Assembly: GCA_021462845.1 (NCBI GenBank)
Contig: JAJTXU010000010.1
Location: 1 to 42,639 of the forward strand
From: Anaerolineales bacterium
GTDB lineage: Bacteria; Chloroflexota; Anaerolineae; Anaerolineales; Villigracilaceae
Reading direction: 5' to 3'
DNA length: 42,639 bases
Shown one piece after another: positions 8,618-29,626 of this stretch (the stretch's first letter is position 1; each line of letters opens with the position of its first letter). Position numbers and translations under genes: made by a program. Under the pieces are notes generated by a model. The model was not told where the DNA came from. It made no database searches and was given only the letters and a program-made list of their open reading frames with translations.

Positions 8618-10096
8618 CTACGAGCGCCAATCTGCCATAGAGAAGTTATTTCTGTGAACCAGTTTCAAGAATTCAGGGACAACTCCGGGGTCAAATAATT
8701 TCCCGGTTTGTTCCTTGATGTATTCGATGGCTTTCTGCTTTGTCCATGCGTTCCGGTATGGCCGCTCGGAGGTCAGGGCATCGTACACATCGGCAATGGA
8801 AAACACCCGCGCTGAAAAGGGAATTTGTTCGCCTTTGAGGTTGTCCGGGTAGCCGGTGCCATCCCATCGTTCATGGTGCCAGTGTGGAATATCGAGCGCG
8901 GGGGATAGATAGCTAATGGGGGTTAGTAATTCTACGGCAACGGCGGGATGTTTGCGCATGATGTTCCATTCATCTTCTGTGAGCGGGCCGGGCTTGAGAA
9001 GAATATCATCAGGAATGGCGACCTTGCCGATGTCATGCAGAATGGCGCCGCGACGGATATGGATCAACTCTTCCTTTGCCACGCCCAAGGCAAGAGCAAG
9101 TTGCACGGTCATATCTGCTACTCGGCGGGTGCGTCCTTCCGTTTCTCGATCTCGAAAATCCAGGGTGCGCAACCAGCCCTCGATGGTCGAATCGTATGCC
9201 ATGCCCAGTTCTGCATTGGATTTTTGCAAGTTCTCGAACAAAATGGCATTGTCGATGGCTATGGCGCCCCTCCCGGCAAGGATGTCGAGAAATTCAAGCC
9301 AGGTTGCATCAGGATTTAGAATCGAGGAATGAAATACCTCCAGCACACCGAGGATGCGTCCTTTTGTGATAAGCGGCAAACCGATGTAGGAGACGAATTT
9401 TTCACCTCGTAGATATGATGGCATGTCGCCGCCCTGCGCGTTCCCGGTGAGGTTCGAGAAGTGGATACGTTTTCTTTCCAATGCTACTTGTCCTGCGTAT
9501 CCAGCCCCAAGTTTCAGAAAGACTGATGGGTTAGCGTTTGAATGGAATCCCCTCGACGCTGCCAGGGTTAGCAGGTTGGCTTCGGAATTCATCAGCAGGA
9601 GGGTGGAGGCATCCGCAGGCAGGAGGCTGTTTGCCTGCTCAAGCAGGAGGGGGAGGAGCAGGTTCAAGTCGAGGTTGGAAGCGATGGCAAGGTCGAGGCT
9701 TCTCAATCCCGTCATCCGTCGCAACTGTTGTTGCATTTTCAGTTCAGATTGTTTGTATTTTGTTATGTCTCGCGAAAATAAGATCTGTTGGGAGGGGGAA
9801 AGGCAGGTTAATCGTCCGTCGAACCAAAATTTTTGGCCGTCGAAGGTAGTTAAAGAAAACTCAAATGGAAGAATATGCCCGCTTTGATAAAACTCTTCAA
9901 GCCCGCCTGGATATTTGCTCATGGGAAGTAGCTCGCCAATTCGCTGGTAATGAAATTCCCCCGAAAATTTTTCAGCCAGATATGGGGCGGTCAACTTGTA
10001 ATCTAAGATGTTCCCGCGGGCATCTAATACAACAACCAGATCGGCGGAGGATTTGAGAATCGATTCAAGCAGGGAATCTGCCGGGAGCGCTGTCAT
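8618..10096 (-). CDS. PAS-GAF-HD-GYP signalling protein, probable c-di-GMP phosphodiesterase
   Basis: The 492-residue soluble protein has three domains. A PAS domain spans about 8-125 (SADLVVVLDARGNILDYK, LFSRDITKYKQSE). A GAF domain spans about 140-290 (SLLPADASTLLLMNSEANLLTLAASRG; GKRILGVLEV-like core GRILGVLEVFHS). An HD-GYP domain runs from about 300 to 485. Catalytic metal-site motifs are intact: HDIGK after RRGAILHDIGK, HP, HWHHERWDGTGYPD with the GYP triplet, and IADVYDALTSERPYR. It should hydrolyse cyclic di-GMP in response to a signal sensed by PAS or GAF. A GGDEF diguanylate cyclase lies 7 kb away, so the window has both synthesis and breakdown. Its terminator is at 8481-8514. Confidence 0.9.
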   Translation of the reverse strand: MTALPADSLLESILKSSADLVVVLDARGNILDYKLTAPYLAEKFSGEFHYQRIGELLPMSKYPGGLEEFYQSGHILPFEFSLTTFDGQKFWFDGRLTCLSPSQQILFSRDITKYKQSELKMQQQLRRMTGLRSLDLAIASNLDLNLLLPLLLEQANSLLPADASTLLLMNSEANLLTLAASRGFHSNANPSVFLKLGAGYAGQVALERKRIHFSNLTGNAQGGDMPSYLRGEKFVSYIGLPLITKGRILGVLEVFHSSILNPDATWLEFLDILAGRGAIAIDNAILFENLQKSNAELGMAYDSTIEGWLRTLDFRDRETEGRTRRVADMTVQLALALGVAKEELIHIRRGAILHDIGKVAIPDDILLKPGPLTEDEWNIMRKHPAVAVELLTPISYLSPALDIPHWHHERWDGTGYPDNLKGEQIPFSARVFSIADVYDALTSERPYRNAWTKQKAIEYIKEQTGKLFDPGVVPEFLKLVHRNNFSMADWRS

Positions 10097-10207: not shown

Positions 10208-10486
10208 TTAGGCACCTTGCAGTGCCTGATTTACCTGTTGGGCAAAATCAGCCAGATCTTCAGCCTGTATTGATTTGATGATGGATGCTTCACGGTCGGA
10301 TAAGACAAAGGGTTGCCCCAAGTATCCGTTCGCGAGCGCTTCTTCCGGGGTTTTGAGGAGCGTTTCTCGAAATTGCCCGCTGACTACAGCCGCGGCAAAT
10401 AAGCGGTGGAGCCCCGTGCGTTTGGCAGGTTGCTGGCGATAGCCCAAGGATGGGTTTTTGTAAGTGTCGAAGGTGAGCAATGCCAT
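10208..10486 (-). CDS. Small NHLP-leader-like protein
   Basis: Function unknown. The 92-residue protein has a basic N-terminal part (KNPSLGYRQQPAKRTGLHRLF), then a segment resembling NHLP/Os1348-type peptide leaders: FRETLLKTPEEALANGYLGQPFVLSDREASIIKSI in outline, followed by AEDLADFAQQV. Such leaders are the N-terminal parts of some ribosomally made, modified peptides, but here no obvious core follows; it ends NQALQGA. It starts 27 bases after the stop of the 40-residue repeat peptide gene, with TAGGAG before its ATG, and both lie between one promoter and one terminator. It could be a leader supplied in trans, a partner or chaperone of the repeat peptide, or a signalling peptide precursor. 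The family assignment is from remembered pattern, not a search. Confidence 0.6.
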   Translation of the reverse strand: MALLTFDTYKNPSLGYRQQPAKRTGLHRLFAAAVVSGQFRETLLKTPEEALANGYLGQPFVLSDREASIIKSIQAEDLADFAQQVNQALQGA

Positions 10487-10513: not shown

Positions 10514-10636
10514 CTATCGTCCGCCAGTGCAACCATCGGCAGGAGATCGGCGTCCGCCAGTGCAACCATCGGCAGGAGATCGGCGTCCACCAGTGCAACC
10601 ATCGGCAGGTGTGTGTTGGGAGAATTTATTGTTCAT
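10514..10636 (-). CDS. 40-residue tandem-repeat peptide (3 x PADGCTGGRRS)
   Basis: This small gene is easily missed. The ATG at 10636 is preceded by AGAGGA with 8 bases of spacing. The peptide begins MNNKFSQHT, then has three repeats of PADGCTGGRRS, the last ending at GGR before a TAG stop. Each unit holds one Cys, one Thr, one Asp and a Gly pair, with Arg-Arg-Ser between units. This layout suits a multi-core precursor cut at basic sites, or a small metal- or disulfide-bonding peptide. The 33-bp DNA repeats are exact except for one synonymous change (GGT versus GGC). It is first gene of a two-gene operon with the NHLP-like protein, next to a SARP-type regulator. No modification enzyme is adjacent. 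Function unknown; being translated at all is inferred from the ribosome-binding site and context. Confidence 0.55.
   Translation of the reverse strand: MNNKFSQHTPADGCTGGRRSPADGCTGGRRSPADGCTGGR
10519..10608. repeat. 33-bp tandem repeat, 2.7 copies
   Basis: Two full copies (10519-10551 and 10552-10584) and a 24-base partial copy (10585-10608) are identical except for one base. The period of 33 keeps one reading frame, and the repeats encode the 11-residue units of the 40-residue peptide. There are no unique spacers, so this is not a CRISPR array. Confidence 0.9.
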
Positions 10637-10668
10637 GGGGTATTTCCTCTTTCTTTCAAATTTTTCCC

Positions 10669-10706
10669 ATGATACTCGCCCCCAGGCTACAAAACAGGCT
10701 ACAAAA
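10669..10706 (-). promoter_or_regulatory. Candidate SARP-controlled promoter with two 12-bp direct repeats
   Basis: Two perfect tandem copies of TTTTGTAGCCTG (minus strand, 10695-10706 and 10683-10694) end exactly 8 bases before a -10-like TATCAT (10669-10674). SARP/BTAD regulators classically bind direct repeats placed 8 bp upstream of the -10, though usually with 11-bp period. Transcription would begin near 10662, about 26 bases before the peptide start. The neighbouring 1066-residue protein carries a SARP domain. Confidence 0.5.
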
Positions 10707-10875: not shown

Positions 10876-13800
10876 TTACATAGTTAATTCGGCGTAGATT
10901 TTGTCAAAATCTTCGGAAGGGGACAGCCCCAATTCGTTCATTAGCAAGGTTTTATACTCATGATACCGATGCACAACAGCTCCGCGATCGCCTATTGCCG
11001 CGTATGCCCGCATTTCGATCTGGCAGATCGCTTCATTGTATCGATCCTGCTCAACGGCTTTCTTGCAAGTAGCGAGACATTCCTGAAATTGGTTTGTGTC
11101 TAAATACAGTTGCGCAAGTTCATCCAATACAGAGCGATAGATACGCCCCAACCGTTCCCGCTCGATCAGAACCCAATCCGCATCAAGATCGGCGAGGTAG
11201 GGGCCCTCCACCAATTCCACCGCCTTGCGATATAGCCCGATTCGCTCGATCAAATCCTGGGTCTGATAAACCTTCTTCAAGAAAGACTCAAATGCATCTA
11301 CATCATACTCATAGTCCATTGCGCGATTGAACCGGTAATATTCATCCTCAAACAGGATCGCGTTTCGTCCTACAGCGCGACGAAGCCAATAAATACCGTG
11401 TTTGAACTTTGTCCGTATTGTGTCCGGATCATCGATATCGTGCCATAAAACCTCAGCCACTTGTTCTTTTGTAACCGGTTCCTGGTTGTATAAGAAATAA
11501 AAGAACAAATCTCGAACCGATTGTGTGCGCCAATCGGAAACGTTAACCGCCCTGCCGCTCACAACAACTTCTGCGCGCCCTAATGCCTTGATTTTAATAC
11601 TGGCGGTGGGCATTTGAATGGTTTGAGCAAACCTGCGCAGAATCCTTCGCACAGATGGCAGTCTCTCGCTCAATATTCGGGAATTTTCAAACAACCTGCT
11701 AAATTGGCGTCCAATGCTAGTATCCGTTTGCAGTACTGCCAGCCGGGATGAAGCTTGGTGCAGGGCAACCAACAAGGCATGTTGCAAGTGATTGGTACCC
11801 TCAACTATGTTTTGAAATTCCAGCCGGGTCTTGTCTTTCTCTTCCGAGTGATTGTATGCAGCCATCAGCCATACAACAGACCAGCAATATTCCACATCGC
11901 GGCCGTCTTGTAGAAAACGCGATTTGCTGTCATTCAGGTGGATGATGGCTTTTTTGATATCGCCGTTGATGAAACACAGCCTGCCTTGCAGCAAAGCCCA
12001 CAAACCGCGTTCATAACTTGAGGGATTGATTTTTAATTTCTTCCTAAATTGTTTGAGCAGTTCATCGGCCGTGTTCACATCGTTTTTTAGAAGCGCCAAA
12101 TTCGCGCGCGCTAATATCAGGTAGCTTACTATGAACAGAGCCGAACAACTTTCAGCCACAATGCTTGCCTGTTCATAGGCGCGTTCAGCGGCGTCAAACT
12201 CTTCGATTTCAGTATATAGATCGCCCAACCCGGTCAGTATCAACGCCTCGGCGTGTTGATTACGGCTATTGCGAGCGCACTCAAGCCCTTCTTCAAAACT
12301 GTCCGAAGCGAATTCATATTCGCCTACTTGTAAGTACAGCACCGCGAGATTGTTGAGGGTATTTGCCTGGGTATAAAGATTCTTTTCACGGCGTAATCGA
12401 TTTAACGCTTCTTGATACAAATTCTTCGCGACTTCGACATCTCCAATGGTCGCGCGAACCATGGCTGTCTCCACTAACAACATCGAAATACTGCCGGTTT
12501 CCTTTAACTCGTTGTAGAGGTGGAGTGAACGCTCAAGGTCTTCGACGGCGTTTCGCGCCTGCCCCAAACGGTAATAATTTAATCCTCGGGTTCGTAACGC
12601 TTCTGCATAAAGCGTTTGCATCGACATATCCGTTTCGGCTATTGTGAGGGCATGATTTACATCCTTGATCGACTCTTCGTATTTTGCGAGCAACCTGAGG
12701 GCATGCGCGCGGCGGATCAACGCGAGAGCCAGTCCGCTTTGGTTATGTCCCCTTTGGTACGTTTCAACTGCAATATCCAGCAACGCATTTGCTTCGGGCA
12801 AATTCCCTTTCATGGCAGAGACCATACCCCGCAGAGAAATCAAGCCTGGTCTCGACCGGACAATGACCGGCGGCAGGCTATTAATCCAACCTTCCAGGGT
12901 GATTAACGCCGCCTGCAACATTGGCGTGCCAGCCCGTTCGATCAATTCTGCGAGCGCGTTTGGGTTGTTCAATTGTTTACAGGTGTAATAGGCTTTTTCC
13001 CACTCGCCCTCCGCTTCATGCGCGGTGACCATTCTTTCCAGTATGGAAGGAATATCTTCGGGGTATTCTTCCCGCAGGCGGGCTTGCAAAAACTCACGGA
13101 AAAGAGGATGGTAGCGGAGCCAGCGCCCATCTTCCAAAGGTAGAACGAACAGGTTTTTATCCAAAATGAAGCCCATGAGGTTAAGCCAGTTTTGCGGCGC
13201 GCCATAAAATGGACCTAACACGATCTCGCAAAACTCCGCGTTGAATTCTTCCGGCAGGCATGTCCGCAGAAGAAACTCGCGCACATGCCGAGGTTGCTGG
13301 TCGAGCACCTGTTTTCCTAAATACGCAAATGTATCCTTACCTGAAAATTGCACCTCGGTGGAGTTGGAAAGAACCATGCCGGTGATCCACCCGCCCGATT
13401 TCTCGACAAATTCGTTCGCCTTATCATCCGCTAGATACTGGCGGTGGTTCTGAATATACAGAGCCTGGATTTCGCGCGGCTGGAACGCCAGGTCGATGTG
13501 GTTCAATCCTTTCACCTGCTCGCGAGCCACCATCAGGGTCACATCATCCAGCTCCGGCAGAGTGCGCGACGAAATGATCAGGTGACAATTCTCATCCACC
13601 AATTGCAGAAAACGATTGACCAGCGAGGCGATCACCGGCACATCATCCAATAAGTGGAAATCGTCGATAATCATGAAATAATCGCCTTCCGCCTGCTCGT
13701 ACAACTCGTTCGTCAAGGCGACGAGAAGCGCTTCCGCATCGCTTTCCATCGATTTGAGGTTGTTCAACAAGGGTTGAGACGCTTCGCCCGCCTTCGGGAA

Positions 13801-14076
13801 CCGTTCTGCCAGAGACGCAATCAAGTATGCCATGAACCTCTGCGGATCGCGATCCAGCGGATCTAATGTAAGCCAGCACACCGGAACTTTTGCTTGATGA
13901 GCAAGATCAATAAGTAGCGACGTTTTTCCATATCCCGCGCTGGCAGAGAGCAAGATCAATTTATTTTCCAGAAACCCGTTCATTTTCTCTAACAAGCGGG
14001 GGCGCGTGAGCAGTTCCCGCCGGCGGTTCGGGACAATGATCTTCGTTTTACTGATTGGAATGGATGATTTTGTCAT
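10876..14076 (-). CDS. MalT/LuxR-like STAND ATPase with TPR repeats and C-terminal SARP/BTAD domain
   Basis: A 1066-residue signal-integrating transcription factor. The N-terminal MalT-type NTPase has Walker A SASAGYGKTS at about 44-53 and Walker B YFMIIDDFHLLDD near 135. A winged-helix-like ATPase lid follows, then TPR-type repeats from about 380 to 790 (for example LAVLYLQVGEYEFASDSFEEGLECA). From about 810 there is a winged-helix DNA-binding segment (VSDWRTQSVRDLFFYFL, VTKEQVAEVLW) and a BTAD domain to the end. The usual LuxR helix-turn-helix is replaced by SARP/BTAD, as in AfsR-like activators. The gene ends 240 bases before the repeat-peptide operon, whose promoter has SARP-like direct repeats. 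The likely role is activator of that operon (inference). No Shine-Dalgarno site is obvious before its ATG. Confidence 0.88.
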   Translation of the reverse strand: MTKSSIPISKTKIIVPNRRRELLTRPRLLEKMNGFLENKLILLSASAGYGKTSLLIDLAHQAKVPVCWLTLDPLDRDPQRFMAYLIASLAERFPKAGEASQPLLNNLKSMESDAEALLVALTNELYEQAEGDYFMIIDDFHLLDDVPVIASLVNRFLQLVDENCHLIISSRTLPELDDVTLMVAREQVKGLNHIDLAFQPREIQALYIQNHRQYLADDKANEFVEKSGGWITGMVLSNSTEVQFSGKDTFAYLGKQVLDQQPRHVREFLLRTCLPEEFNAEFCEIVLGPFYGAPQNWLNLMGFILDKNLFVLPLEDGRWLRYHPLFREFLQARLREEYPEDIPSILERMVTAHEAEGEWEKAYYTCKQLNNPNALAELIERAGTPMLQAALITLEGWINSLPPVIVRSRPGLISLRGMVSAMKGNLPEANALLDIAVETYQRGHNQSGLALALIRRAHALRLLAKYEESIKDVNHALTIAETDMSMQTLYAEALRTRGLNYYRLGQARNAVEDLERSLHLYNELKETGSISMLLVETAMVRATIGDVEVAKNLYQEALNRLRREKNLYTQANTLNNLAVLYLQVGEYEFASDSFEEGLECARNSRNQHAEALILTGLGDLYTEIEEFDAAERAYEQASIVAESCSALFIVSYLILARANLALLKNDVNTADELLKQFRKKLKINPSSYERGLWALLQGRLCFINGDIKKAIIHLNDSKSRFLQDGRDVEYCWSVVWLMAAYNHSEEKDKTRLEFQNIVEGTNHLQHALLVALHQASSRLAVLQTDTSIGRQFSRLFENSRILSERLPSVRRILRRFAQTIQMPTASIKIKALGRAEVVVSGRAVNVSDWRTQSVRDLFFYFLYNQEPVTKEQVAEVLWHDIDDPDTIRTKFKHGIYWLRRAVGRNAILFEDEYYRFNRAMDYEYDVDAFESFLKKVYQTQDLIERIGLYRKAVELVEGPYLADLDADWVLIERERLGRIYRSVLDELAQLYLDTNQFQECLATCKKAVEQDRYNEAICQIEMRAYAAIGDRGAVVHRYHEYKTLLMNELGLSPSEDFDKIYAELTM

Positions 14077-20525: not shown

Positions 20526-21512
20526 TCAAACATTTCTTGTGCTTCGCGGGTCAAGCGCGTCGCGCAGACCGTCGCCAATGAAGTTGATACACAATACGGT
20601 TAGCATAATCATCAACCCTGGGAAAAGCCATAACCATGGCGCGGTTTGAAGATACTTCACCGCGCTATCGAGCATGTTGCCCCAACTGGCGGTGGGCGTT
20701 TGCACGCCCAAGCCGAGGAAGCTCACGTACGCTTCGCTGGTGATGGCGTTGGCAACTCCCAATGTGGATGAAACGATGATCGGGGCGATGGTGTTCGGTA
20801 AAAGGTGTTTGAAGATGATGCGCGCGTCTGAAACGCCGAGGGCGCGCGAAGCGGAGATGTAATCCATTTCTTTCAGCGACAGCACGTTGGCGCGCACGAT
20901 GCGGGCGAGATACATCCAACTGGTAAACCCAATGACGAAGATGATGACGACCACGCTTCCGCTAAACGCGCGCCCGAGGAATTGTATTTCCGGAACGCTA
21001 CCTCCGATGGCTTTCGATAGGACGATCAACAGAAACAGGCTGGGGATGATCAACATGGCTTCGGTGACGCGCATGAGGAGGTCGTCAATCCATCCGCCGA
21101 AGTATCCCGCGACCGCGCCGACTAGAACGCCCACAACCACCTCGACGATTACGGCAAAAATACCAATGGTGAGCGAGATCTGCCCGCCATAGATGGTGCG
21201 GGCAAGAATATCGCGCCCGATCGTGTCTGTGCCAAACGGGTGCTCGCGCGAGGGTGGCTGGAGTTTTTGCGCGGTGTCGTTGCAGTTGGCGTAGGCTTCG
21301 GCGGTTAAAAATTCCCCGGTGGGCGCGCAAATGCCGCGCGAGAATACAAGCCCTCCCAACCAAATGTAGAGGAGCAATACGATCATCCCGCCGAGGGCGA
21401 AGAGCGCGGCTTTATGCTTGCGGAACCTGCGCCACATCAATTGACCGGGGGTGAGCGGTTGGTTTTTCATGCCGTCGATGGCTGATGTTTCAGGGAGCGT
21501 GATGGTCGTCAT
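20526..21512 (-). CDS. Peptide/nickel ABC transporter permease, DppC-like (cassette 2)
   Basis: An inner-membrane channel subunit of a binding-protein-dependent importer. The 328-residue protein has the DppC N-terminal motif (LMWRRFRKHKAALFALGGMI), HPFGTDTIGRDILARTIYGGQISL, and the coupling EAA loop ASRALGVSDARIIFKHLLPN. The C-terminus is INFIGDGLRDALDPR, the family ending. A large external loop near 50-80 holds two cysteines (GICAPTG and AYANCND). It follows the DppB-like gene by 15 bases and is last in the operon, ending at a terminator. The partner ATPases are not in this window. Confidence 0.92.
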   Translation of the reverse strand: MTTITLPETSAIDGMKNQPLTPGQLMWRRFRKHKAALFALGGMIVLLLYIWLGGLVFSRGICAPTGEFLTAEAYANCNDTAQKLQPPSREHPFGTDTIGRDILARTIYGGQISLTIGIFAVIVEVVVGVLVGAVAGYFGGWIDDLLMRVTEAMLIIPSLFLLIVLSKAIGGSVPEIQFLGRAFSGSVVVIIFVIGFTSWMYLARIVRANVLSLKEMDYISASRALGVSDARIIFKHLLPNTIAPIIVSSTLGVANAITSEAYVSFLGLGVQTPTASWGNMLDSAVKYLQTAPWLWLFPGLMIMLTVLCINFIGDGLRDALDPRSTRNV

Positions 21513-21527
21513 GCGTGTATCTCCCGG

Positions 21528-22559
21528 TTAAGCGATACGGATGCGCGGATCAAGGAACGAGTAGGCGATGTCGGTAACGAGTTGAAAAAAAACCACTGCC
21601 AGACCGGTCATCATCAAGATGCCCATCAATACCGGGAAATCTGATTGCGAGATGGATGTGACGAACAACCGCCCGGTGCCTGGCCAGGCGAAGATGGTTT
21701 CGGTCAACACGGCGCCGGCGAGCAGAAAGGGAATATCCAGACCGATAAGCGTGACGAACGGCAGTGTCGCGTTGCGCAAGGCATGTCTGATCACGACGAT
21801 GTGCTTTTGCAGTCCCTTGGCGCGCGCGGTGCGGATGTAGTCCAAGCCGAGCACCTCCAGCATGGAAGAGCGCACATAACGGCTATACCCGGCAATGCTG
21901 ATGATCGAGAGAGAAACCACCGGCAAGATCATGTGTAAGGCGATCTGCCCGGGCGTCCGCCCCACCTGCGGATCGAACATACCGACGGTGGGGAGGTAAG
22001 GCAACCCCCATTCTTTGAAATTGATGCTGAACAAGTACATGAGCAATAATGCCAGCAGGGGAATCGGCATGGCGTACCCGATGAATGAGAACCCGGTAAA
22101 CAAGTTGTCGAACAGGGAATATTGGCGTATTGCCGAATACACCCCGAAGGCGAGCGAGAAAACAATGATGACGATCTCAACCACTCCCATTAACAATAAG
22201 GTATTGGGCAACCGTTCAGTGACCAGTTCGGAAACAGGGCGTTTGTTGATGAGCGAATTTCCAAAGTCGCCGCGCAACACGCCGAGTCGTTTGCCCGGCG
22301 TTTCAGGAACGCCGTCGCCATCCATGTCAATTTTCATCCAATCGTTGCCAGCCAGCCAAACTACATATTGAACGTAAACGGGTTGATCCAGCCCCAACTG
22401 GCGTCGGAGGCGCTCCCTGTCGGCAGGTTTCGGAGGCGTGCGGACTCCCAACGAAGCGATGGGGTCGCCGAATGCCTGCATCAAAAGGAACAAGACCAGG
22501 CTGATCAGAAAGAGCTGAGGAATGGACTGAAGGACACGCCGAATGATGTAATTGACCAT
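21528..22559 (-). CDS. Peptide/nickel ABC transporter permease, DppB-like (cassette 2)
   Basis: Forms the channel with the DppC-like protein. The 343-residue protein starts MVNYIIRRVLQSIPQLFLISLV, has the DppB motif GDFGNSLINKRPVSELVTERLPNTLLL, the EAA loop TARAKGLQKHIVVIRHALRNATLP, and ends SFLDPRIRIA. Unusually, the external loop after the first helix includes DMDGDGVPE (about 78-86), a calcium-loop-like motif not typical of DppB. The binding-protein gene upstream also has a DSNGDGTRDKDG stretch. A perfect 10-bp stem-loop separates the two genes. Confidence 0.92.
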   Translation of the reverse strand: MVNYIIRRVLQSIPQLFLISLVLFLLMQAFGDPIASLGVRTPPKPADRERLRRQLGLDQPVYVQYVVWLAGNDWMKIDMDGDGVPETPGKRLGVLRGDFGNSLINKRPVSELVTERLPNTLLLMGVVEIVIIVFSLAFGVYSAIRQYSLFDNLFTGFSFIGYAMPIPLLALLLMYLFSINFKEWGLPYLPTVGMFDPQVGRTPGQIALHMILPVVSLSIISIAGYSRYVRSSMLEVLGLDYIRTARAKGLQKHIVVIRHALRNATLPFVTLIGLDIPFLLAGAVLTETIFAWPGTGRLFVTSISQSDFPVLMGILMMTGLAVVFFQLVTDIAYSFLDPRIRIA

Positions 22560-22585
22560 GACGACCGCCTGTGTTGAAACAAATC

Positions 22586-22622
22586 AGCGGACAGGGTGAC
22601 TTTTTATATCATCCTGTCCGCT
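22586..22622 (-). other. Stem-loop between binding-protein and permease genes (cassette 2)
   Basis: AGCGGACAGG (22586-22595) and CCTGTCCGCT (22613-22622) form a perfect 10-bp stem with no strong T-run on the minus strand. A similar hairpin is at the same place in cassette 1. It could stabilise the upstream mRNA so that binding protein exceeds permease, as with malE-malF hairpins. Confidence 0.65.
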
Positions 22623-22637
22623 ATTTGCTTTGTTGAT

Positions 22638-24356
22638 TTATTCGCTAATCGACCACTCGTGCGCGTTCCAGAACGGAGACGCCCCGGAGAATTTCACTCC
22701 TTGCAGGCGATTGCTCACTGCCCAAAGATCGGGGTCCTTCCACATGCCCACCCAGACCACATCGTCGAACATGATCTGCCCGATCTGATAGTAAAGTTCC
22801 TTGCGGGCTTCGGGGTTGGTCTCGGTGGCTTGCTGGTCGAACAATTTGTCCAATTCGGGGTTGCAATAGCCCTGCCAGTTTCCACCATCCGGGTTATCCG
22901 GTCCCACAACTTGCGAGCACAGCCAGTAAGAAGATTGTTCCGGATCGGGGAAACTTGTGACATCGGACCATTCGGCGATATCGTAGTTGCCGGTGGCGAT
23001 CGGTCCGCCGTCCGCGTAACTGTTGAAGAAATCGTCGCCGTAGTTCACCAATTCCACGCCGATGCCGACCTGCGCCCACATCTGTTGTACCACGGCTTGC
23101 ACATCCTTGCGCAATTGGCGTTGGTTGGAGATGTAACGCAACACAAGTTCCACGCCATCTTTATCGCGCGTGCCATCGCCATTTGAATCCACCCAGCCAG
23201 CCGCATCGAGCAGACTGCCCGCTTCTGTCGGATCGTAGGGATAGGGTGAAATATCCGGGTTTCCGTAAGGAGGCGTGCTGTCCCAGAACGTGGCGGGAAC
23301 GGCGGTCAGCCCTCCGAGCAAGTCGTTTACGATCTTCTCGCGGTCGGTGGCAAGTACGATTGCCTTGCGCACGTTCACATCCTGCATAGCGGGATGCGCG
23401 GTTTCAGGATCGAAATTCAAAAACCAGCCTTCATCGTAACCGGAAGGTTGCGTCACAAATTTTGCTTTGCCGTTCGAGTTAATGGCATCCGCTTGCGACC
23501 AATCGAGAAACGTTCCGATATCCGTATCGCCAGCCAGAATGGCGACCTCTTGCGCCGCATCGTCCGCGATGCGGATGAATACTTGTTGCAACTTCGCGGG
23601 GCGAATCCAATTCGGGTTCGCTTCGAAGATCAGGTGGCTGTCGGTTTCCCATTCCGTGAAAACGAACGGGCCTACCCCAACGGTCGGCGCGGTATTCCAC
23701 GCGGCGTTATCCAATGTGCCTTCCGCCTCGAAGACCGGGCGAAGAACATGCTCCGGGAGAACGCCGGTGTTGAACAACGTGGTCAGCCATGCGGCGAACG
23801 GCGCGTTGAAGTGAATCACCAAAGTTGTATCGTCGGGCGCTTCCATGCTGGTCACATAATCCGCGTAGGGGTACGTACTGCTGACCACATTCTTATCCGA
23901 GACGAACATTTCGTAGGTAAAGACGAAATCGTTCGCGGTCACGGGTTCGCCATCGCTCCACAGGACATCGTCGCGCAATTTGATCGTCAAAGTCTGACCA
24001 TCCGCGCTCATTCCGCCGTTCTCTGTGGTGGGAAGTTCGGCGGCAATTTCGAGCACCGGGTTGTTGTCTGAATCGAACGACCACAAACCCTTCAGCCACA
24101 GTTGCGTGGTGATGCTCGAAAACCATTGTGTTTGATAGAGCGGGCTGAGTGTGGTCGGCTGTTGCACGAAGGTGACAACCGCAATGCCGCTCTGAACGGG
24201 AGCCGCCGGTTCGGTGGCCGCGGGTTCCGTCGCTGCGGGCGCCGCTGGTTCGGTTGATACGGCTGGAGGTTCGGTTTCGGCGCCTCCGCCGCAAGCCGCT
24301 AACACCATGCTCGCGAGAACGAGCAGAGACAGTAAAGCATACAGGTTTCGTTTCAT
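22638..24356 (-). CDS. Peptide/nickel ABC transporter substrate-binding lipoprotein (cassette 2, family 5)
   Basis: Captures substrate outside the membrane for the permeases encoded downstream. The 572-residue protein has a lipoprotein signal ending LAAC at Cys22 and a Pro/Ala/Thr-rich tether to about residue 55. The family-5 fold is in canonical order: TTLSPLYQTQW, then KLRDDVLWSDGEPVTANDFVFTYEMF, then DDTTLVIHFNAPF, and VGVGPFVFTEWE in the middle. The start is ATG at 24356 with GGAGG upstream; a longer frame to 24446 is rejected. Its signal peptide is nearly identical to that of the cassette 1 protein, indicating paralogy. A DSNGDGTRDKDG stretch near residue 400 may bind calcium. The substrate is unknown. 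Confidence 0.92.
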   Translation of the reverse strand: MKRNLYALLSLLVLASMVLAACGGGAETEPPAVSTEPAAPAATEPAATEPAAPVQSGIAVVTFVQQPTTLSPLYQTQWFSSITTQLWLKGLWSFDSDNNPVLEIAAELPTTENGGMSADGQTLTIKLRDDVLWSDGEPVTANDFVFTYEMFVSDKNVVSSTYPYADYVTSMEAPDDTTLVIHFNAPFAAWLTTLFNTGVLPEHVLRPVFEAEGTLDNAAWNTAPTVGVGPFVFTEWETDSHLIFEANPNWIRPAKLQQVFIRIADDAAQEVAILAGDTDIGTFLDWSQADAINSNGKAKFVTQPSGYDEGWFLNFDPETAHPAMQDVNVRKAIVLATDREKIVNDLLGGLTAVPATFWDSTPPYGNPDISPYPYDPTEAGSLLDAAGWVDSNGDGTRDKDGVELVLRYISNQRQLRKDVQAVVQQMWAQVGIGVELVNYGDDFFNSYADGGPIATGNYDIAEWSDVTSFPDPEQSSYWLCSQVVGPDNPDGGNWQGYCNPELDKLFDQQATETNPEARKELYYQIGQIMFDDVVWVGMWKDPDLWAVSNRLQGVKFSGASPFWNAHEWSISE

Positions 24357-24526
24357 AATTCTCCTCCAAGAGAGATGGATACGATTTTGCGATGAGTAGG
24401 GAAACGGATCGAAAGACATCTGTGCCGGGCAACCTCCTGCCATCAAGATTAAATAGCAACCACCTTCCGCCGCTGGATGCAGACGATCCTTCCGACGGGT
24501 GGGCTGATTCGCAACTTCGGCGTTTT

Positions 24527-25474
24527 CTAACTGACGTGCGCCAGGCGCGGGTCGAGCGCATCACGCAGACCATCGCCAAGTAAATTGAAAGCCAGCACCG
24601 TGAGCATGATCGCCAGACCGGGATAAAACACAAGATGCGGCGCCGTGAACACCTGGTTGCGTTCTTGTCCTAACATTGAACCCCACTCCGGGGTTGGATG
24701 TTGGGCTCCCAGCCCGAGGAAGGAAAGAGCCGCAGTCTCCAAAATGGCGGAGGCAATTCCCAGAGTCCCCTGCACGATCAACGGCGTTAACGCGTTGGGG
24801 AGGATTCGTCGAAAGAGAATTTCGTAAGTGTTTCCCCCGAGCGAACGCGTGGCAGAGACGTAATCCATCTCGCGCACTGAAAGCACACTGCCGCGCACAA
24901 CCCGCGCATACGCGGGGATCGAAACGATACCAATGGCGATCAACGCATTGATCAATCCCGGCCCCAGCACAGTAACGATTGCAATCGCAAGCAACAAGGA
25001 TGGAAAAGCAAGCACTACATCCATCACGCGCATGATCGTGTTATCCACCCAGCCGCCAAAATAGCCTGCCAGCGCGCCAAGGACAGTACCGATGAGAATG
25101 GAAAATGAAACGGTGGCAAACCCGATCACAAGGCTGATTCGGGCGCCATACAACAAACGGCTGAATTCATCGCGAATATTCCCGTCCAATCCCATCAAGT
25201 GTTGCGGCTCGCTTTGAGGGCAACCAAAAGCGTGAACGCAGGGCGGCAGGCGCTTTTCGATCTTGCCGGTGTAATCGGGCACGTCGAGCATCGATTTTGT
25301 TGGGTCGTATGGCGCAAGCCATTGCGCCGTCAGCGCCACCAGAATTAACATCCCTAAAATGATCATGCCCATCACGGCAGATTTGCGTCGGAATAATCGC
25401 TTTCTGGTGATGCCCCAAAGGCTGACCGAATCTAATGATGTTTCAGTATTGAGTTTGGCGAGGTTCTGTCCCAT
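24527..25474 (-). CDS. Peptide/nickel ABC transporter permease, DppC-like (cassette 1)
   Basis: The 315-residue channel subunit shows ITRKRLFRRKSAVMGMIILGM at the first helix, the EAA loop TRSLGGNTYEILFRRILPN and ending LGDGLRDALDPRLAHVS. The external loop carries two cysteines (PPCVHAFGCPQ). It begins 2 bases after the DppB-like stop codon, so translation is probably coupled. A 170-base gap with no visible gene separates it from the next binding-protein gene. It is clearly paralogous to the 20526-21512 protein. Confidence 0.92.
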   Translation of the reverse strand: MGQNLAKLNTETSLDSVSLWGITRKRLFRRKSAVMGMIILGMLILVALTAQWLAPYDPTKSMLDVPDYTGKIEKRLPPCVHAFGCPQSEPQHLMGLDGNIRDEFSRLLYGARISLVIGFATVSFSILIGTVLGALAGYFGGWVDNTIMRVMDVVLAFPSLLLAIAIVTVLGPGLINALIAIGIVSIPAYARVVRGSVLSVREMDYVSATRSLGGNTYEILFRRILPNALTPLIVQGTLGIASAILETAALSFLGLGAQHPTPEWGSMLGQERNQVFTAPHLVFYPGLAIMLTVLAFNLLGDGLRDALDPRLAHVS

Positions 25475-25476
25475 AA

Positions 25477-26556
25477 TCAGTTCAATCGAATCCGTGGGTC
25501 GAGGTAGGCGTACGAAATATCCACGATCAAGTTAAGCGCTACGAAGAAAACGGCGATCACAACCGTGAAAGCCTGCACGATCCCGTAGTCGCGCGCGGTG
25601 ATGGCTTCATATAAAATTCGCCCAACGCCCGCCAAATTGAATACGGTTTCGGTTAAGACAGCGCCGCCAAGCAAGCCGCCTAGAGAAAGTCCAACAACGG
25701 TTACGATAGGCAACAAGGCATTGCGCAGAGCATGACGGATGACCACCGTCCTTTGCTTTAACCCTTTGGCGCGAGCGGTACGAATATAATCCTGCCCCAA
25801 CACTTCCAGCATGGAAGATCGAGACATACGGGCAATCAATGCCATGGGAATGGTTGAAAGGGCAACTGCGGGCAAAACCATATGTTGCACGGCGTCTTTG
25901 AACACTTTCCAATCGCCGGAGAGTATGCTGTTCAAAATATTCATGCGTGAGATGAATTCTGCAATGATGTAGATCGTTGTCCCTTCGGTCAGCGTCATAT
26001 TCCACACTTCAAAAAATGGATCGGGGATCAAACCGGGGGAAAGTCGCCCGGAGGGAGGCAACTGAAATGGCGTGCCTTTCAGAGTCAAAGAGAAAAAATA
26101 CGCGAGCATTAAACCCAACCAAAAGACCGGCATCGAAACGCCAATATTTGCCCAGAGCATGGTGAGCACATCCACCCACGAGTTATGGCGTACGGCTGAA
26201 ATGATCCCGAGAGGAATCCCCACAAGAAGACTGATGGATAACGCCGCCAAACTTAATTCGATGGTAATGGGCAGGCGCTGTGAAAGGATTTCGGTGACCG
26301 GCATGGAGAAACGAAAAGAATTACCGAAATCTCCTTTGAATATCTCGCCCATGTACACGGCGAATTGAACCGGGATAGGTTTATTCAACCCATGGCGTTC
26401 GAGGAATTGGTCGCACACATCATCGGTCGCTTTTTCTCCCAACATAGCCCGGCAGGGGTCGCTGGGAATCAAACGTGCCAGCGCAAAGGTGGCAAACAAT
26501 ATACCGATGATAACGGGAATACTTAGTAGAAGACGGCGCAGGATATATGTGGTCAT
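25477..26556 (-). CDS. Peptide/nickel ABC transporter permease, DppB-like (cassette 1)
   Basis: The 359-residue channel subunit starts MTTYILRRLLLSIPVIIGILF and has GDFGNSFRFSMPVTEILSQRLPITIEL. The EAA loop is TARAKGLKQRTVVIRHALRNALLP and it ends AYLDPRIRLN. The external loop after the first helix has SDPCRAML and DDVCDQF, a possible disulfide. An extra segment near 165-215 (QLPPSGRLSPGLIPDPFFEVWN and following) lengthens it relative to the cassette 2 protein. It lies between the binding-protein gene and the DppC-like gene in one apparent operon. Confidence 0.92.
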   Translation of the reverse strand: MTTYILRRLLLSIPVIIGILFATFALARLIPSDPCRAMLGEKATDDVCDQFLERHGLNKPIPVQFAVYMGEIFKGDFGNSFRFSMPVTEILSQRLPITIELSLAALSISLLVGIPLGIISAVRHNSWVDVLTMLWANIGVSMPVFWLGLMLAYFFSLTLKGTPFQLPPSGRLSPGLIPDPFFEVWNMTLTEGTTIYIIAEFISRMNILNSILSGDWKVFKDAVQHMVLPAVALSTIPMALIARMSRSSMLEVLGQDYIRTARAKGLKQRTVVIRHALRNALLPIVTVVGLSLGGLLGGAVLTETVFNLAGVGRILYEAITARDYGIVQAFTVVIAVFFVALNLIVDISYAYLDPRIRLN

Positions 26557-26572
26557 CGCAAATTTTGATAAA

Positions 26573-26604
26573 CCCCGACAGGGATGGTTTTATCCCTGTC
26601 GGGG
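26573..26604 (-). other. Stem-loop between binding-protein and permease genes (cassette 1)
   Basis: CCCCGACAGGGAT (26573-26585) and its exact complement (26592-26604) form a perfect 13-bp stem with a 6-base loop. On the minus strand only TTTATC follows, so partial termination or 3'-end protection of the binding-protein mRNA is likelier than full termination. Confidence 0.7.
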
Positions 26605-26639
26605 GCCGTTCATTTTGATCTTACTGCATTAACACGAGG

Positions 26640-28370
26640 CTATTGAGGAGCGTTCAAGAAAGCGCCGAACAGATATGTCCAGTATTCGAATGCGCCGGTG
26701 TTGCCTTTGTGAAGCGGGTGGGCGGCATCCCATTGCACTACGTATGAAAGCACAACATCGTTGGCGTCCAATGCGGAACCATCGTGGAAGGTAACGCCCT
26801 GGCGCAGGTGGAATGTCCACTCGGTCAGATCGTCGTTTGCTTCAAAGGATTCAGCCAAACCACCGGTTTCAGTAGCGGTACCACCGATCTGGTACGAGAG
26901 AAGCGGTTCTGTCACCTGTTCGCATGCGCGCAGGGATTCGCCGTCGGTTTCATCCGCGCAGTACAGCGAGATGGGCTCGGCGTTCTGCATCCACACAAAG
27001 GTGTCTTGTCCGGGGATGCCCATCACAGCAAAGATTTCTGTGCTGAGCGGGCTGGCATGAGCGCCTTCCACAGCCGCTTTGTAAGCGATCGCGGAACCGC
27101 CGTGCGCCACAGGGATCATCGGAACGTGCTTTTTGATCGCATCGTTAGCGGCGGCATAGAAAGGCTCGCGATCGGCTTCCGCGGCAAGTTGTCCGCCTTT
27201 GGTCAGGTTGTCTGTAATGTCATCAAACGAAGTACCAAATTGGTTAAACGCCGCGGCGCTAAAGTGAGCATCGAGGAAGTTGACCACATCTGGGAAGTCG
27301 GCGCCCCAACCGAGTAAGTGCATGCCATCGAGGGCTCCGGAGTTGGCGGCATCAAGGAACGCGCCGGATTCCATTTCATTGATCTCAACGGTCACGCCGA
27401 GGTTTTCCTTCAACTGCGCTTGGATATCCTGCGCCACGATAACAGGATCGGGCAGGTAACCGCGAACCACATTACGGTAGCTCAACTTGACAGAGGGGAA
27501 GGGATTGCTTGCGCTGTAACCGGCTTCCGCGAGCAGAGCTTTGGCGGCTTCAGGGTTGAAGTCGTACCATGACTCACCGGCGCAACCGTTCGGGATGGAG
27601 CACGGAGTGAAGTGCGAAGCGACTTCGGAACCGGCGGGATAGAAGTTATCCACAATGCGTTGGCGGTCAATGGCTTGGGCAAACGCTTGGCGCACGAGTT
27701 CGTTGTCGAACGGAGCGAAGGTATTGGTCATGCCAATGTACATCACATTCAACGCAGGGCGGGGCATCAATTTGAGGGATGAATCGCCTTCAACGGTGCC
27801 AAAATCATCTGGTCCTACGTTATCGATCGCGTCAACGGCGCCGTTTTGGAGCTCAAGCAAACGCTGGGCTGATTCAGAACCCCAGCGGAACACGAGAGTC
27901 GGGGTCTTGGCGGGTTCACCCCAGTATGCATCGTTGCGGGTGAAAACGATCTGATTGCCGCGTTCCCAAGCTTCCAACTTATATGGGCCAGTGCCGATCG
28001 GCTTCTCGAGCAGATCGCCGCTTCCACCAGTGGATTCAAGGTATTCACTGGGTTGGATGCCGAGCGAAGAGAACGCTACTTTCGCAGGGACGGCTGGATC
28101 GGGTGCGCAGAGCGTGAGTTTTACGGTGAACTCGTCCACCGCTTCGATGGATTTCATGCCGCCGCCGTAATCACAGCTAGGGGCTTCCACTTTCATGCCT
28201 TCATAGGCGGCGGGTGGTTCAGTGGGGGCTTGTGTCGCCGGGGCTTCGGTGGGCGGGGCGGCCGGTTCTTCGGTGACAGCCTGGGTGGGGGTTTGTCCGC
28301 CGCCGCACGCCGCCAGAATCATGCTCGCGAGGACGAGCAGAGACATCAAACTGAATAGGTTTCGTTTCAC
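26640..28370 (-). CDS. Peptide-binding lipoprotein with circularly permuted family-5 domain (cassette 1)
   Basis: An importer receptor of 576 residues with lipobox LAAC (Cys22) and a Thr/Pro/Ala tether to about residue 55. The domain order is unusual. The mature part opens with segments that belong in the middle of family-5 proteins: KSIEAVDEFTVKLTLCAPDPA, IQPSEYL, then PIGTGPYKLEAWERGNQIVFTRN. It continues to the canonical C-terminal part (NDAIKKHVPMIPVAHGG). From about residue 465 to the end comes what is normally the N-terminus: EPISLYCADETDGESLRACE, EPLLSY, GLAESFEANDDLTEWTFHLR, QGVTFHDGSALDANDVVLSY. The fold should close up as a normal two-lobe protein with new ends. Six or more cysteines suggest disulfides. 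The start is GTG with GGAGGAG upstream. Confidence 0.88.
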   Translation of the reverse strand: MKRNLFSLMSLLVLASMILAACGGGQTPTQAVTEEPAAPPTEAPATQAPTEPPAAYEGMKVEAPSCDYGGGMKSIEAVDEFTVKLTLCAPDPAVPAKVAFSSLGIQPSEYLESTGGSGDLLEKPIGTGPYKLEAWERGNQIVFTRNDAYWGEPAKTPTLVFRWGSESAQRLLELQNGAVDAIDNVGPDDFGTVEGDSSLKLMPRPALNVMYIGMTNTFAPFDNELVRQAFAQAIDRQRIVDNFYPAGSEVASHFTPCSIPNGCAGESWYDFNPEAAKALLAEAGYSASNPFPSVKLSYRNVVRGYLPDPVIVAQDIQAQLKENLGVTVEINEMESGAFLDAANSGALDGMHLLGWGADFPDVVNFLDAHFSAAAFNQFGTSFDDITDNLTKGGQLAAEADREPFYAAANDAIKKHVPMIPVAHGGSAIAYKAAVEGAHASPLSTEIFAVMGIPGQDTFVWMQNAEPISLYCADETDGESLRACEQVTEPLLSYQIGGTATETGGLAESFEANDDLTEWTFHLRQGVTFHDGSALDANDVVLSYVVQWDAAHPLHKGNTGAFEYWTYLFGAFLNAPQ

Positions 28371-28473: not shown

Positions 28474-28501
28474 ATTATACAGCAAAAGAATGATTAGTAA
28501 A
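28474..28501 (-). promoter_or_regulatory. Promoter of the ABC import operon
   Basis: TTTACT (28496-28501) and TATAAT (28474-28479) on the minus strand are 16 bases apart. The -35 box overlaps the stop codon of the radical SAM gene. Transcription would begin near 28467, leaving a leader of about 95 bases before the GTG start. Confidence 0.65.
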
Positions 28502-29609
28502 CGGGTAAAGGTATCCCCATTCCATTTAACGCTACTTGAGAGGGGTTTTTGTGCCACAATCCGGGAACCTTTGCATCGCAATGAGGGCATTTTCCCTCGC
28601 TCGTGATGTGATACTCTTGAATGATATACCCCCGCCTCTTGATCAATCGGAAGTTACATTCCGGGCAGGTTGTGTCTTCATACTCTCCCACTTGACCCGG
28701 CAAATTCCCCGCATAGACGAATCGCAGACCGGCTTCGCGTCCGATGTCTGCCGCGCGCAAAAGAGTCTTCGCATCGGTGTTATCCGGGTCAGTCATCTTG
28801 TAATCTTTATGAAACGCCGTGACGTGCCACGGAATATCTCTTGATACGCCCGCGATGAACCGTGCCGCATCCCACAACTCTTCGTTTGAATCGTTGAACC
28901 CCGGAATTGTCAACGTGACAATTTCAACCCATAGCCCCGCATCATGCGCGCGCTTGATCCCATCCAGCGTGTTTTGCAGGACGCCGCCGAGTTTGCGATA
29001 ATTTTTGTCCTGCATACATTTCAAATCCACTTTGTATGCCGAGATATACGGGCGGATGTATTCCATCACTTCCGGCGTGTTGTTTCCGTTGGAGACATAC
29101 GCGCACATCAAGCCCGCCTTCTTCGCCTCCTTGAAAATCTCCACTGCCCACTCGCTGGTGATCAATGGTTCGTTGTAAGAGGAAACAACAATCGAAGCCT
29201 TCGTTTTTCTGGCGTAATCAACCATCCCCTGCGGCGAAATCTTCCGAATGTAATTCACCGAAACATCCGAAGACGGATCGCGCATGGCTTGGGAAGTTAA
29301 CCAATTTTGACAGAATCCACAATGGTAGTCGCAACCCAACATCCCAAACGTCAGCGCGTTGACGCTGGGCAGAACATGAAAGAACGGTTTCTTTTCCACC
29401 GGGTCGCTTTGAAGGGCGGCGACGTATCCATGCGGCACGCGCAATTTCCCGTCCCGATTGAATCGCACCTGACAAATCCCCCGCTTGCCCTCGCGGATCA
29501 CACAGCGATGTCCGCACGCGAAACATCGCACCTCTTTGTTCGGTAATTTTTCGTATAACTCTCCCTCCACCGTCAGCGCATCCAACGTCTCGCCGATTGA
29601 AGTTGCCAT
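28494..29609 (-). CDS. amrS: AmmeMemoRadiSam-type radical SAM enzyme
   Basis: A radical SAM enzyme of the pyruvate-formate-lyase-activase-like group; the physiological substrate of this family is not settled. The 371-residue protein has the cluster motif CDYHCGFC (CX3CX2C) near residue 94. An N-terminal cysteine-rich segment (CFACGHRCVIREGKRGICQVRFN) and a C-terminal pair of CPxC motifs (TCPECNFR and KCPHCDAKVPGLWH) are characteristic of the family. The usual Memo and AMMECR1 partner genes are not in this window. The ATG at 29609 has no ribosome-binding site; TATTAT lies 6 bases upstream with TATACA 17 bases further, suggesting a leaderless transcript divergent from mobA. The link to peptide modification elsewhere in the window is not supported. 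Confidence 0.88.
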   Translation of the reverse strand: MATSIGETLDALTVEGELYEKLPNKEVRCFACGHRCVIREGKRGICQVRFNRDGKLRVPHGYVAALQSDPVEKKPFFHVLPSVNALTFGMLGCDYHCGFCQNWLTSQAMRDPSSDVSVNYIRKISPQGMVDYARKTKASIVVSSYNEPLITSEWAVEIFKEAKKAGLMCAYVSNGNNTPEVMEYIRPYISAYKVDLKCMQDKNYRKLGGVLQNTLDGIKRAHDAGLWVEIVTLTIPGFNDSNEELWDAARFIAGVSRDIPWHVTAFHKDYKMTDPDNTDAKTLLRAADIGREAGLRFVYAGNLPGQVGEYEDTTCPECNFRLIKRRGYIIQEYHITSEGKCPHCDAKVPGLWHKNPSQVALNGMGIPLPVY

Positions 29610-29626
29610 ACGAATATAATACACCT
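29610..29626. promoter_or_regulatory. Shared divergent -10 region of amrS and mobA
   Basis: Only 17 bases separate the two start codons. The plus strand reads TATAAT (29615-29620) exactly 6 bases before the mobA ATG. The minus strand reads TATTAT (29616-29621) exactly 6 bases before the amrS ATG. One near-symmetrical A/T block thus appears to serve both genes, and both transcripts would be leaderless. Confidence 0.55.

Follow-up and report, generated by a model that had tools for sequence, protein, structure and literature searches.

In most members of the RRNPP group the signal is short and C-terminal. Cytoplasmic peptide signalling via TPR receptors is described for Bacillota in the excerpts of the RRNPP literature used here (PMC10075063, PMC11343458), where one to four tandem copies of the pheromone occur (PMC11343458), and an excerpt on RopB-SIP/LCP describes a leaderless communication peptide beside a TPR regulator (PMC10518010). 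Searches of an open-access library listed no report of such TPR peptide signalling in Chloroflexota. For the AfsR-AfsS pair of Streptomyces, the excerpts used give AfsS as a protein of 63 aa with three 12-residue repeats (PMC2267785), and SARP sites as direct repeats 11 or 22 bp apart, the 3' repeat lying 8 bp from the -10 element (PMC10936776). The criteria for RRNPP systems applied below were taken from a part of PMC10075063.

The locus described here combines elements of these systems. It lies in a stretch of 42,639 nt, analysed as a whole and referred to as the window, and comprises the following features:

10876 to 14076, minus strand: regulator, proposed receptor and activator, with a MalT-type STAND NTPase (residues about 1-430), a TPR part (about 431-785) and an AfsR-type SARP domain (about 846-1066)
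10683 to 10706, minus strand: SARP-type box, direct repeat TTTTGTAGCCTG present twice with a period of 12
10669 to 10674, minus strand: -10-like TATCAT, exactly 8 nt after the second repeat
10645 to 10650, minus strand: AGAGGA as ribosome site, 8 nt ahead of the ATG; relatives have AAAGAGG or close variants
10514 to 10636, minus strand: peptide precursor gene, 40 aa, leaderless, with two full tandem units and one shortened unit; coding frame assigned by the codon-position test
10577 to 10609, minus strand: unit 1, PADGCTGGR plus RS, 11 residues
10544 to 10576, minus strand: unit 2, PADGCTGGR plus RS, 11 residues
10517 to 10543, minus strand: unit 3, PADGCTGGR, 9 residues, followed by the stop; a mature nonapeptide is predicted
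10208 to 10486, minus strand: Os1348-like NHLP-clan small protein, the conserved next gene (NF038399, E 4.6e-7; PF14407, E 4e-4; both below cut-off)
8618 to 10096, minus strand: GAF/HD-GYP protein, last gene of the conserved module (assigned by Pfam and conserved order)

Translation of the open reading frame gives MNNKFSQHTPADGCTGGRRSPADGCTGGRRSPADGCTGGR, followed by a stop, and the underlying 33-bp tandem extends from 10518 to 10609 (2.8 copies, 98% matches, score 177); the repeated core is PADGCTGGR and the linker is RS. The initial annotation had proposed a hidden 40-residue gene with a well-placed ribosome site and three identical 11-residue units. The gene is borne out by the codon-position test and by orthologues in the same slot, and the ribosome site by AGAGGA at 10650-10645; two units indeed have 11 residues, but the last has only nine, the length of many tails of membrane-type relatives. 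Differences between the units are synonymous only, as had been claimed (GGT/GGC, plus CGC/CGA in the last Arg). It had also been argued that the tandem keeps one reading frame; the frame is a coding one, but its retention is automatic and no evidence of coding by itself, since 33 is divisible by 3, and overlapping frames at the repeat are open as well. The decisive comparison is the one with the nearest relative (G010), in which the gene shows 12 base differences, distributed 0/1/11 over codon positions 1/2/3; eleven of these changes are synonymous and one is not, whereas in frames 2 and 3 only 0/11 and 1/11 of the counted changes are synonymous. The coding pattern is confined to the annotated frame, which is therefore read as the coding one. 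Among the units of a five-unit relative (G013), all five variable sites are third positions (27 nt compared). These sequence comparisons confirm the hidden gene as real.

Orthologues were searched with the 40-aa query in 61 genomes, and only the five that matched at E below 1e-7, which belong to a single genus, were used. Weaker matches outside these five (E 7e-4 to 1) were taken as chance, because about 1.5 kb around each of the 25 loci concerned (L008-L032) contained no match to either the regulator or the NHLP gene; one of them (L008) overlaps an HD-GYP gene. The NHLP-clan gene proved the better anchor, through which two further genomes (G009 and G016) were recruited. It is present in 14 of the 18 same-genus genomes searched and fell below the threshold used in G002, G004, G011 and G015 (the G015 region, taken from a weak match, was empty). 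Just upstream of the best-matching NHLP locus a peptide ORF was found in 14/14 cases, mostly preceded by AAAGAGG. Seven of these are membrane forms of about 46 residues with one hydrophobic segment and tails such as PSDGGGGPF or PTDGSIGPVR; the seven leaderless forms carry one to five units:

G000 and G010: PADGCTGGR, three times
G013: PADASTTGR, five times
G012: PSDGGVGGR, twice, plus PSDGGAGGR
G017: five units, three of them PSDGGSSTR
G009: PADGGGGGR, three times
G016: PSDGGGGGH, once

Unit number thus varies (1, 3, 3, 3, 3, 5 and 5) with the frame intact in 7/7 leaderless loci, the outcome anticipated by the initial annotation; a broken frame, which it had named as grounds for abandoning the gene, was looked for in these seven loci and not seen. 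A single sequence could not have revealed the peptide family, its connection with the regulator or the co-variation with the TPR domain.

Judged by sequence, the window peptide is a derived member of an unnamed family of ~47-residue peptides in Anaerolineae (consensus MKNKLxxLxxxxxKINRQHIQLAxxxLALAMLVLGxGAPxDGGGxxx). The usual form has a membrane segment ending in LVLGxGAP and a tail like PxDGGGxxR; in the window lineage the leader is missing and the tail amplified. A profile of the membrane form matched 72 of the 152 genomes of the taxonomic family at E <= 0.05, the weakest of these matches being doubtful. With a broader profile, matches at E <= 0.001 came from 31 of 396 genomes sampled from the class, and 16 of these 31 do not belong to the family. 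NCBIfam and Pfam scans of the peptides gave nothing above cut-off. Propeptides measure 25-62 aa across loci (40 aa in the window), within the 10-100 aa given for RRNPP propeptides. The maximum 17-residue hydropathy lies between -0.98 and -0.23 in leaderless forms versus 1.52-2.88 in membrane forms; a hydrophobic segment or export signal, as would serve Sec-dependent secretion in RRNPP systems, occurs in 0/7 leaderless forms, and the membrane forms have a hydrophobic segment. Copy number has grown in two ways, since some genomes carry the gene in tandem copies (five in G073 (L154), each preceded by its own repeat box, three in G170 (L129), two in G138 (L134) and three in G026 (L237)) and others carry repeated units within one gene. 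The 53 distinct membrane-type peptides have 48 distinct tails. Mean entropy over the 43 ungapped ones is 1.82 bits at positions 1-13, 0.90 at 14-24, 0.94 at 25-39 and 1.59 in the tail (40-45), in which D41 and G43 are kept in most, so that few residues would carry specificity. The N-terminal 13 residues vary as much as the tail does; what marks the tail out is therefore its link with the TPR domain and not variability by itself.

The order of genes is near-constant: STAND-TPR-SARP regulator, peptide, (DUF5317), Os1348-like NHLP-clan protein and GAF/HD-GYP protein. Among 54 fetched loci (14 obtained from NHLP matches and 40 from peptide matches) the regulator is present in 52, the two remaining loci being cut by contig ends, the NHLP protein in 53, the GAF/HD-GYP protein in 53 and DUF5317 in 38. 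In a named-genome scan, which shares many genomes with these 54 loci, all 32 peptide loci were flanked by the regulator on the upstream side and by the NHLP protein on the downstream side. Receptor and propeptide genes are accordingly direct neighbours, as in RRNPP systems, in the window as well as in 52/54 and 32/32 loci. Twenty further regions (17 outside the family) had the regulator in 18 cases, on the same strand just upstream in 17, and DUF5317 in 16. Exceptions to the order are L225, where the NHLP gene precedes DUF5317, and L239, where the regulator lies on the other strand; in L230 no regulator was detected.

In the 48 loci with a membrane-type peptide, GxGAP and DUF5317 are both present in 37, both absent in 9 and found singly in 2; expressed differently, the motif occurs in 37/38 loci with DUF5317 and is gone in 9/10 loci without it. 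This co-occurrence suggests that DUF5317 handles the GxGAP motif. Eight of the nine loci with neither could be placed in the regulator tree and fall into one clade together with the leaderless loci, and the link may therefore reflect one event. A term search of an open-access library found no mention of DUF5317. A second, divergent copy of the module in G005 (L158, contig 38) retains DUF5317 and GxGAP, unlike the main copy.

The box upstream of the peptide gene recurs in relatives. A 12-bp tandem with at least 9/12 identity was found in 55 of 61 upstream regions versus 3.8% of Markov controls; the canonical motif is recognisable in 45 of the 61, with an 8-nt spacer to TAnnnT in 42 of these 45. 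The spacer agrees with the published description of SARP sites and with the AfsR-AfsS box, while the period of 12 bp instead of 11 is unusual. Two further good sites are present in the own genome, before a gene for a small LuxR-type HTH protein and before an uncharacterised protein with a membrane segment, and 15 other genomes, chosen for having the box before the peptide gene, have a few further sites before other genes. At six loci of other genera (L249, L251, L257, L258, L264, L265) the box stands before long secreted-looking proteins and small ones that are HU-like by eye, and also before uncharacterised proteins of the MAKVKNN or MAKVRNN type; genes behind such sites may be part of the regulon. 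The HTH gene lies behind a SARP-type box in the own genome (L062, contig 26) and in relatives (L067 and L073). Its start region contains a CCCAA pentanucleotide array in L062 and L073 (about two copies in L067), which could switch the start or frame of the gene (phase variation).

The regulator comprises 1066 aa, in comparison with about 250-500 aa for RRNPP receptors. Sequence searches against the PDB matched MalT (E 1.9e-26), AfsR for the C-terminus (weakly, E 0.0028) and, again weakly, kinesin light chain and LGN for the TPR part. In the structure model (mean pLDDT 82.5), helices pair up in an extended series in the manner of TPR proteins. Foldseek placed MalT and a STAND-TPR protein at the top, followed by several TPR proteins including peptide-bound LGN; AfsR bound to the afsS promoter matched as well, with a TM of 0.81 by target. 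The best 50 matches listed include no RRNPP receptor. Going by sequence and model, the TPR part is similar to TPRs that bind peptides (LGN, kinesin light chain) and the SARP part to AfsR. TPR repeats are present in the regulator, and the case for their binding the peptide comes from co-diversification.

The relationship between tail and TPR domain was assessed with the 47 regulators complete within their locus; two with an interrupted frame (L137 and L147) were dropped. As the tail, the majority unit was chosen for L111 (G017) and L110 (G012), and the first copy where several peptide genes occur. The regulators of G000 and G010, both with PADGCTGGR, are 96.5% identical in STAND, 94.8% in TPR and about 98% in SARP, whereas for G000 and G013, between which the unit is changed, identity amounts to 93.5% in STAND, 75.2% in TPR (68.5% in the region 681-845) and 86-90% in SARP; G012 versus G017 gives a similar pattern. 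For G124 and G164 (tail changed) the distances are 0.019 (STAND), 0.014 (SARP) and 0.201 (TPR), and the peptide gene has 2/111 nt changed in the leader and 5/33 in the tail. The tails of G161 and G160 differ by one residue, and their regulators are the same over the N-terminal 430 residues and diverge mainly at 561-640; here, however, the leader has 5/111 nt changed and the tail 2/36, which counts against a focus on the tail. Eight pairs have a STAND distance below 0.1, share members and are thus non-independent; the TPR/STAND ratio is 1.24 in the sole pair with identical tails and 3.1-10.7 in six pairs with changed tails, the eighth showing no STAND difference. Among more distant pairs, two with identical tails gave 1.25 and 1.55, and those with changed tails at comparable distance mostly 1.4-2.3; little TPR excess despite differing tails was found for L134-L135 (1.20, the lowest value) and L140-L152 (1.30).

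Over all 47 regulators, the partial correlation of tail distance with TPR distance, given the other domains, was 0.179, a small value obtained from rows related by descent, and 4/999 permutations were as high; the same control for SARP (567/999) and STAND (759/999) gave no link with the tail. As a rule, TPR domains change faster (mean entropy 1.88 versus 1.29 for STAND and 1.50 for SARP). Synonymous divergence is raised in the TPR segment too, so that segments were probably exchanged between alleles and not merely mutated; part of the co-diversification signal may consequently be hitch-hiking. In the TPR tree the seven leaderless loci group as one clade (0.991), but in the tree of the non-TPR part they do not (conflicting node 0.754). 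A grouping of G086 with G084, which have similar tails, had a support of 0.298 in the TPR tree and was left unused, and for L139 a TPR segment from a donor with the same tail was not shown. Because the differences span entire segments, mapping them onto the TPR helices gave no decisive sign of a preferred face. Taken as a whole, divergence between closely related regulators tends to concentrate in the TPR domain when tails differ; the single very close pair sharing its tail shows no such concentration.

From these data the following scheme is proposed. From the product of the ORF a short signalling peptide would be made, its predicted unit being PADGCTGGR, and this peptide would be sensed by the TPR domain of the adjacent STAND-TPR-SARP regulator. 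With ligand bound, the regulator would attach to the 12-bp direct repeats via its SARP domain and activate the peptide-NHLP(-HD-GYP) genes, which would close a positive loop. Most relatives would make a ~47-residue membrane precursor that releases its tail near the GxGAP motif; in the window lineage the membrane leader is lost and the tail present one to five times, and the Arg-rich linkers between the copies (RS or RRM) could be cut by a protease. For the repeat form, neither an exporter nor a protease was identified. A receptor-ligand pair is expected to leave a variable tail following a conserved membrane segment, a TPR neighbour, an activator box and joint change of tail and TPR domain, and all four are matched here. 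The data show the gene itself, its coding frame, its family, the gene order, the promoter box, the variable tail and the co-diversification with the TPR domain; cleavage, export and re-uptake, physical binding and activation are inferred. In our judgement the probable explanation is a pheromone-like peptide that the TPR domain of the neighbouring regulator reads, the regulator in turn activating the peptide operon. About 6 kb beyond the regulator, two gene sets of oligopeptide-type ABC transporters (permeases and family 5 binding proteins, 20526-28370) are found, which are candidate peptide importers.

Other explanations have to be weighed against this one. That the tandem is a chance ORF, or a repeat with a regulatory role in DNA or RNA, might be suspected from the fact that 33-bp repeats hold any frame open, that overlapping ORFs are present and that a second frame is open over 34-45 codons in G010, G012, G017 and G009 too; the length and sequence of this second frame differ among relatives, however, it is not listed in G013 or G016, and orthologues with other units and codons share the frame, start, ribosome site and place of the annotated gene. 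Being contradicted by the codon-position pattern against G010, this explanation was rejected and has next to no probability. The annotation as a multi-core precursor stands insofar as several copies of one short unit are present, but a RiPP, with units as cores modified by enzymes encoded elsewhere and the NHLP-clan protein as relic leader or partner, is very improbable. The multi-unit layout and a neighbour close to a RiPP leader clan would fit it; the downstream gene resembles the Os1348-family entries NF038399 and PF14407, yet it scores below both curated cut-offs (29.8 vs 40 bits and 21.1 vs 48 bits) and its product ends without a core region. Pfam assigns the window neighbours to inositol monophosphatase, response regulator, arginase, GGDEF, amidohydrolase, MOSC and parts of oligopeptide-type ABC transporters, and nine non-module proteins of three relatives are chaperone, SurE, response regulator, arginase, kinase-like and LiaF-like proteins; no known RiPP maturation enzyme is among them. 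A radical SAM enzyme at 28494-29624, 18 kb away and the only one noticed in the window, might be invoked, though it scores as AmmeMemoRadiSam type (and the arginase as RocF). Given the lack of a core region and of RiPP enzymes among the scanned neighbours, this branch of the NHLP clan probably does something other than carrying a RiPP core. Nor is the central role claimed for Cys and Thr supported, since PADASTTGR, PSDGGVGGR, PSDGGSSTR and PADGGGGGR of the relatives do not keep the Cys. The RiPP reading was rejected on these two grounds, the missing enzymes and the Cys-free units.

A small membrane protein acting as a modulator of DUF5317 or of some other membrane complex, with the repeat form as its decaying remnant, would account for the membrane segment of most forms and for the co-occurrence of GxGAP and DUF5317, although that link perhaps stems from the one event considered above. 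The repeat form does not look like decay: it is under strong purifying selection (the 11/12 synonymous changes), ribosome site and box are kept, and the TPR partners form a clade; we therefore regard this alternative as unlikely. The main rival is an effector of the AfsS type, under which the peptide would be a target of the SARP regulator inside the cell and act downstream instead of being the regulator's ligand. Its anatomy is that of afsR-afsS as described in the excerpts available (a SARP with NTPase and TPR, a box 8 nt from the -10 element and a repetitive product; PMC2267785, PMC10936776), and the repeat form has no export signal. A membrane segment is, by contrast, seen in most family members, and changes of the tail accompany the TPR domain and not the SARP domain, which leaves this rival improbable but worth keeping in mind.

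Large SARPs have a TPR sensor for which the excerpts of the SARP literature cited name no ligand, and the module may give a hint of what that ligand is. It also supplies the exact sequences of the peptides together with candidates for receptor and promoter, by which the idea is testable in vitro at once. More broadly, and with a probability a little short of even, the class Anaerolineae might own a peptide communication independent of the RRNPP systems of Bacillota, in which STAND-TPR-SARP activators of the AfsR/MalT type read short PxDGG-type peptides, peptide and TPR domain are exchanged in concert to give pherotypes, and the window lineage has a leaderless polyprotein of one to five pheromone units with Arg-rich linkers. 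Yeast has multi-copy pheromone precursors, and the leaderless polyprotein would be a bacterial parallel. If this is so, it would be worth testing the puzzling AfsR-AfsS pair of Streptomyces anew, as a possible receptor and its ligand. Filamentous Anaerolineae matter in activated sludge.

Compared with RopB-SIP/LCP, the signal would likewise be made without a leader next to a TPR regulator; LCP is one mature peptide of 8 residues, whereas the products here have 25-62 residues with one to five units. The window gene combines tandem pheromone copies with a leaderless signal. With AfsR-AfsS the system shares a large SARP with NTPase and TPR domains (PMC10936776, in the part used) and the box 8 nt from -10 before a small repetitive product (PMC10936776, PMC2267785, likewise in part); it differs in the C-terminal position of the SARP domain, in repeats spaced 12 bp instead of 11, and in a product family consisting mostly of membrane peptides, AfsS having been compared by anatomy. 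With RRNPP/RRNPPA systems (Rap-Phr, PlcR-PapR, NprR-NprX, AimR-AimP) it shares a small peptide gene directly beside a TPR regulator. The differences are a 1066-residue STAND-TPR-SARP receptor in place of one of 250-500 aa, the occurrence in Chloroflexota and not in Bacillota, a window precursor without a hydrophobic signal segment, Arg-rich linkers, and a box presumably read by the SARP domain. Because receptor length and export signal both deviate, the window system is not filed as RRNPP. By anatomy it is equally close to AfsR-AfsS and to RRNPP; by analogy, it probably works like RRNPP signalling, with a receptor of the AfsR/MalT type in another phylum.
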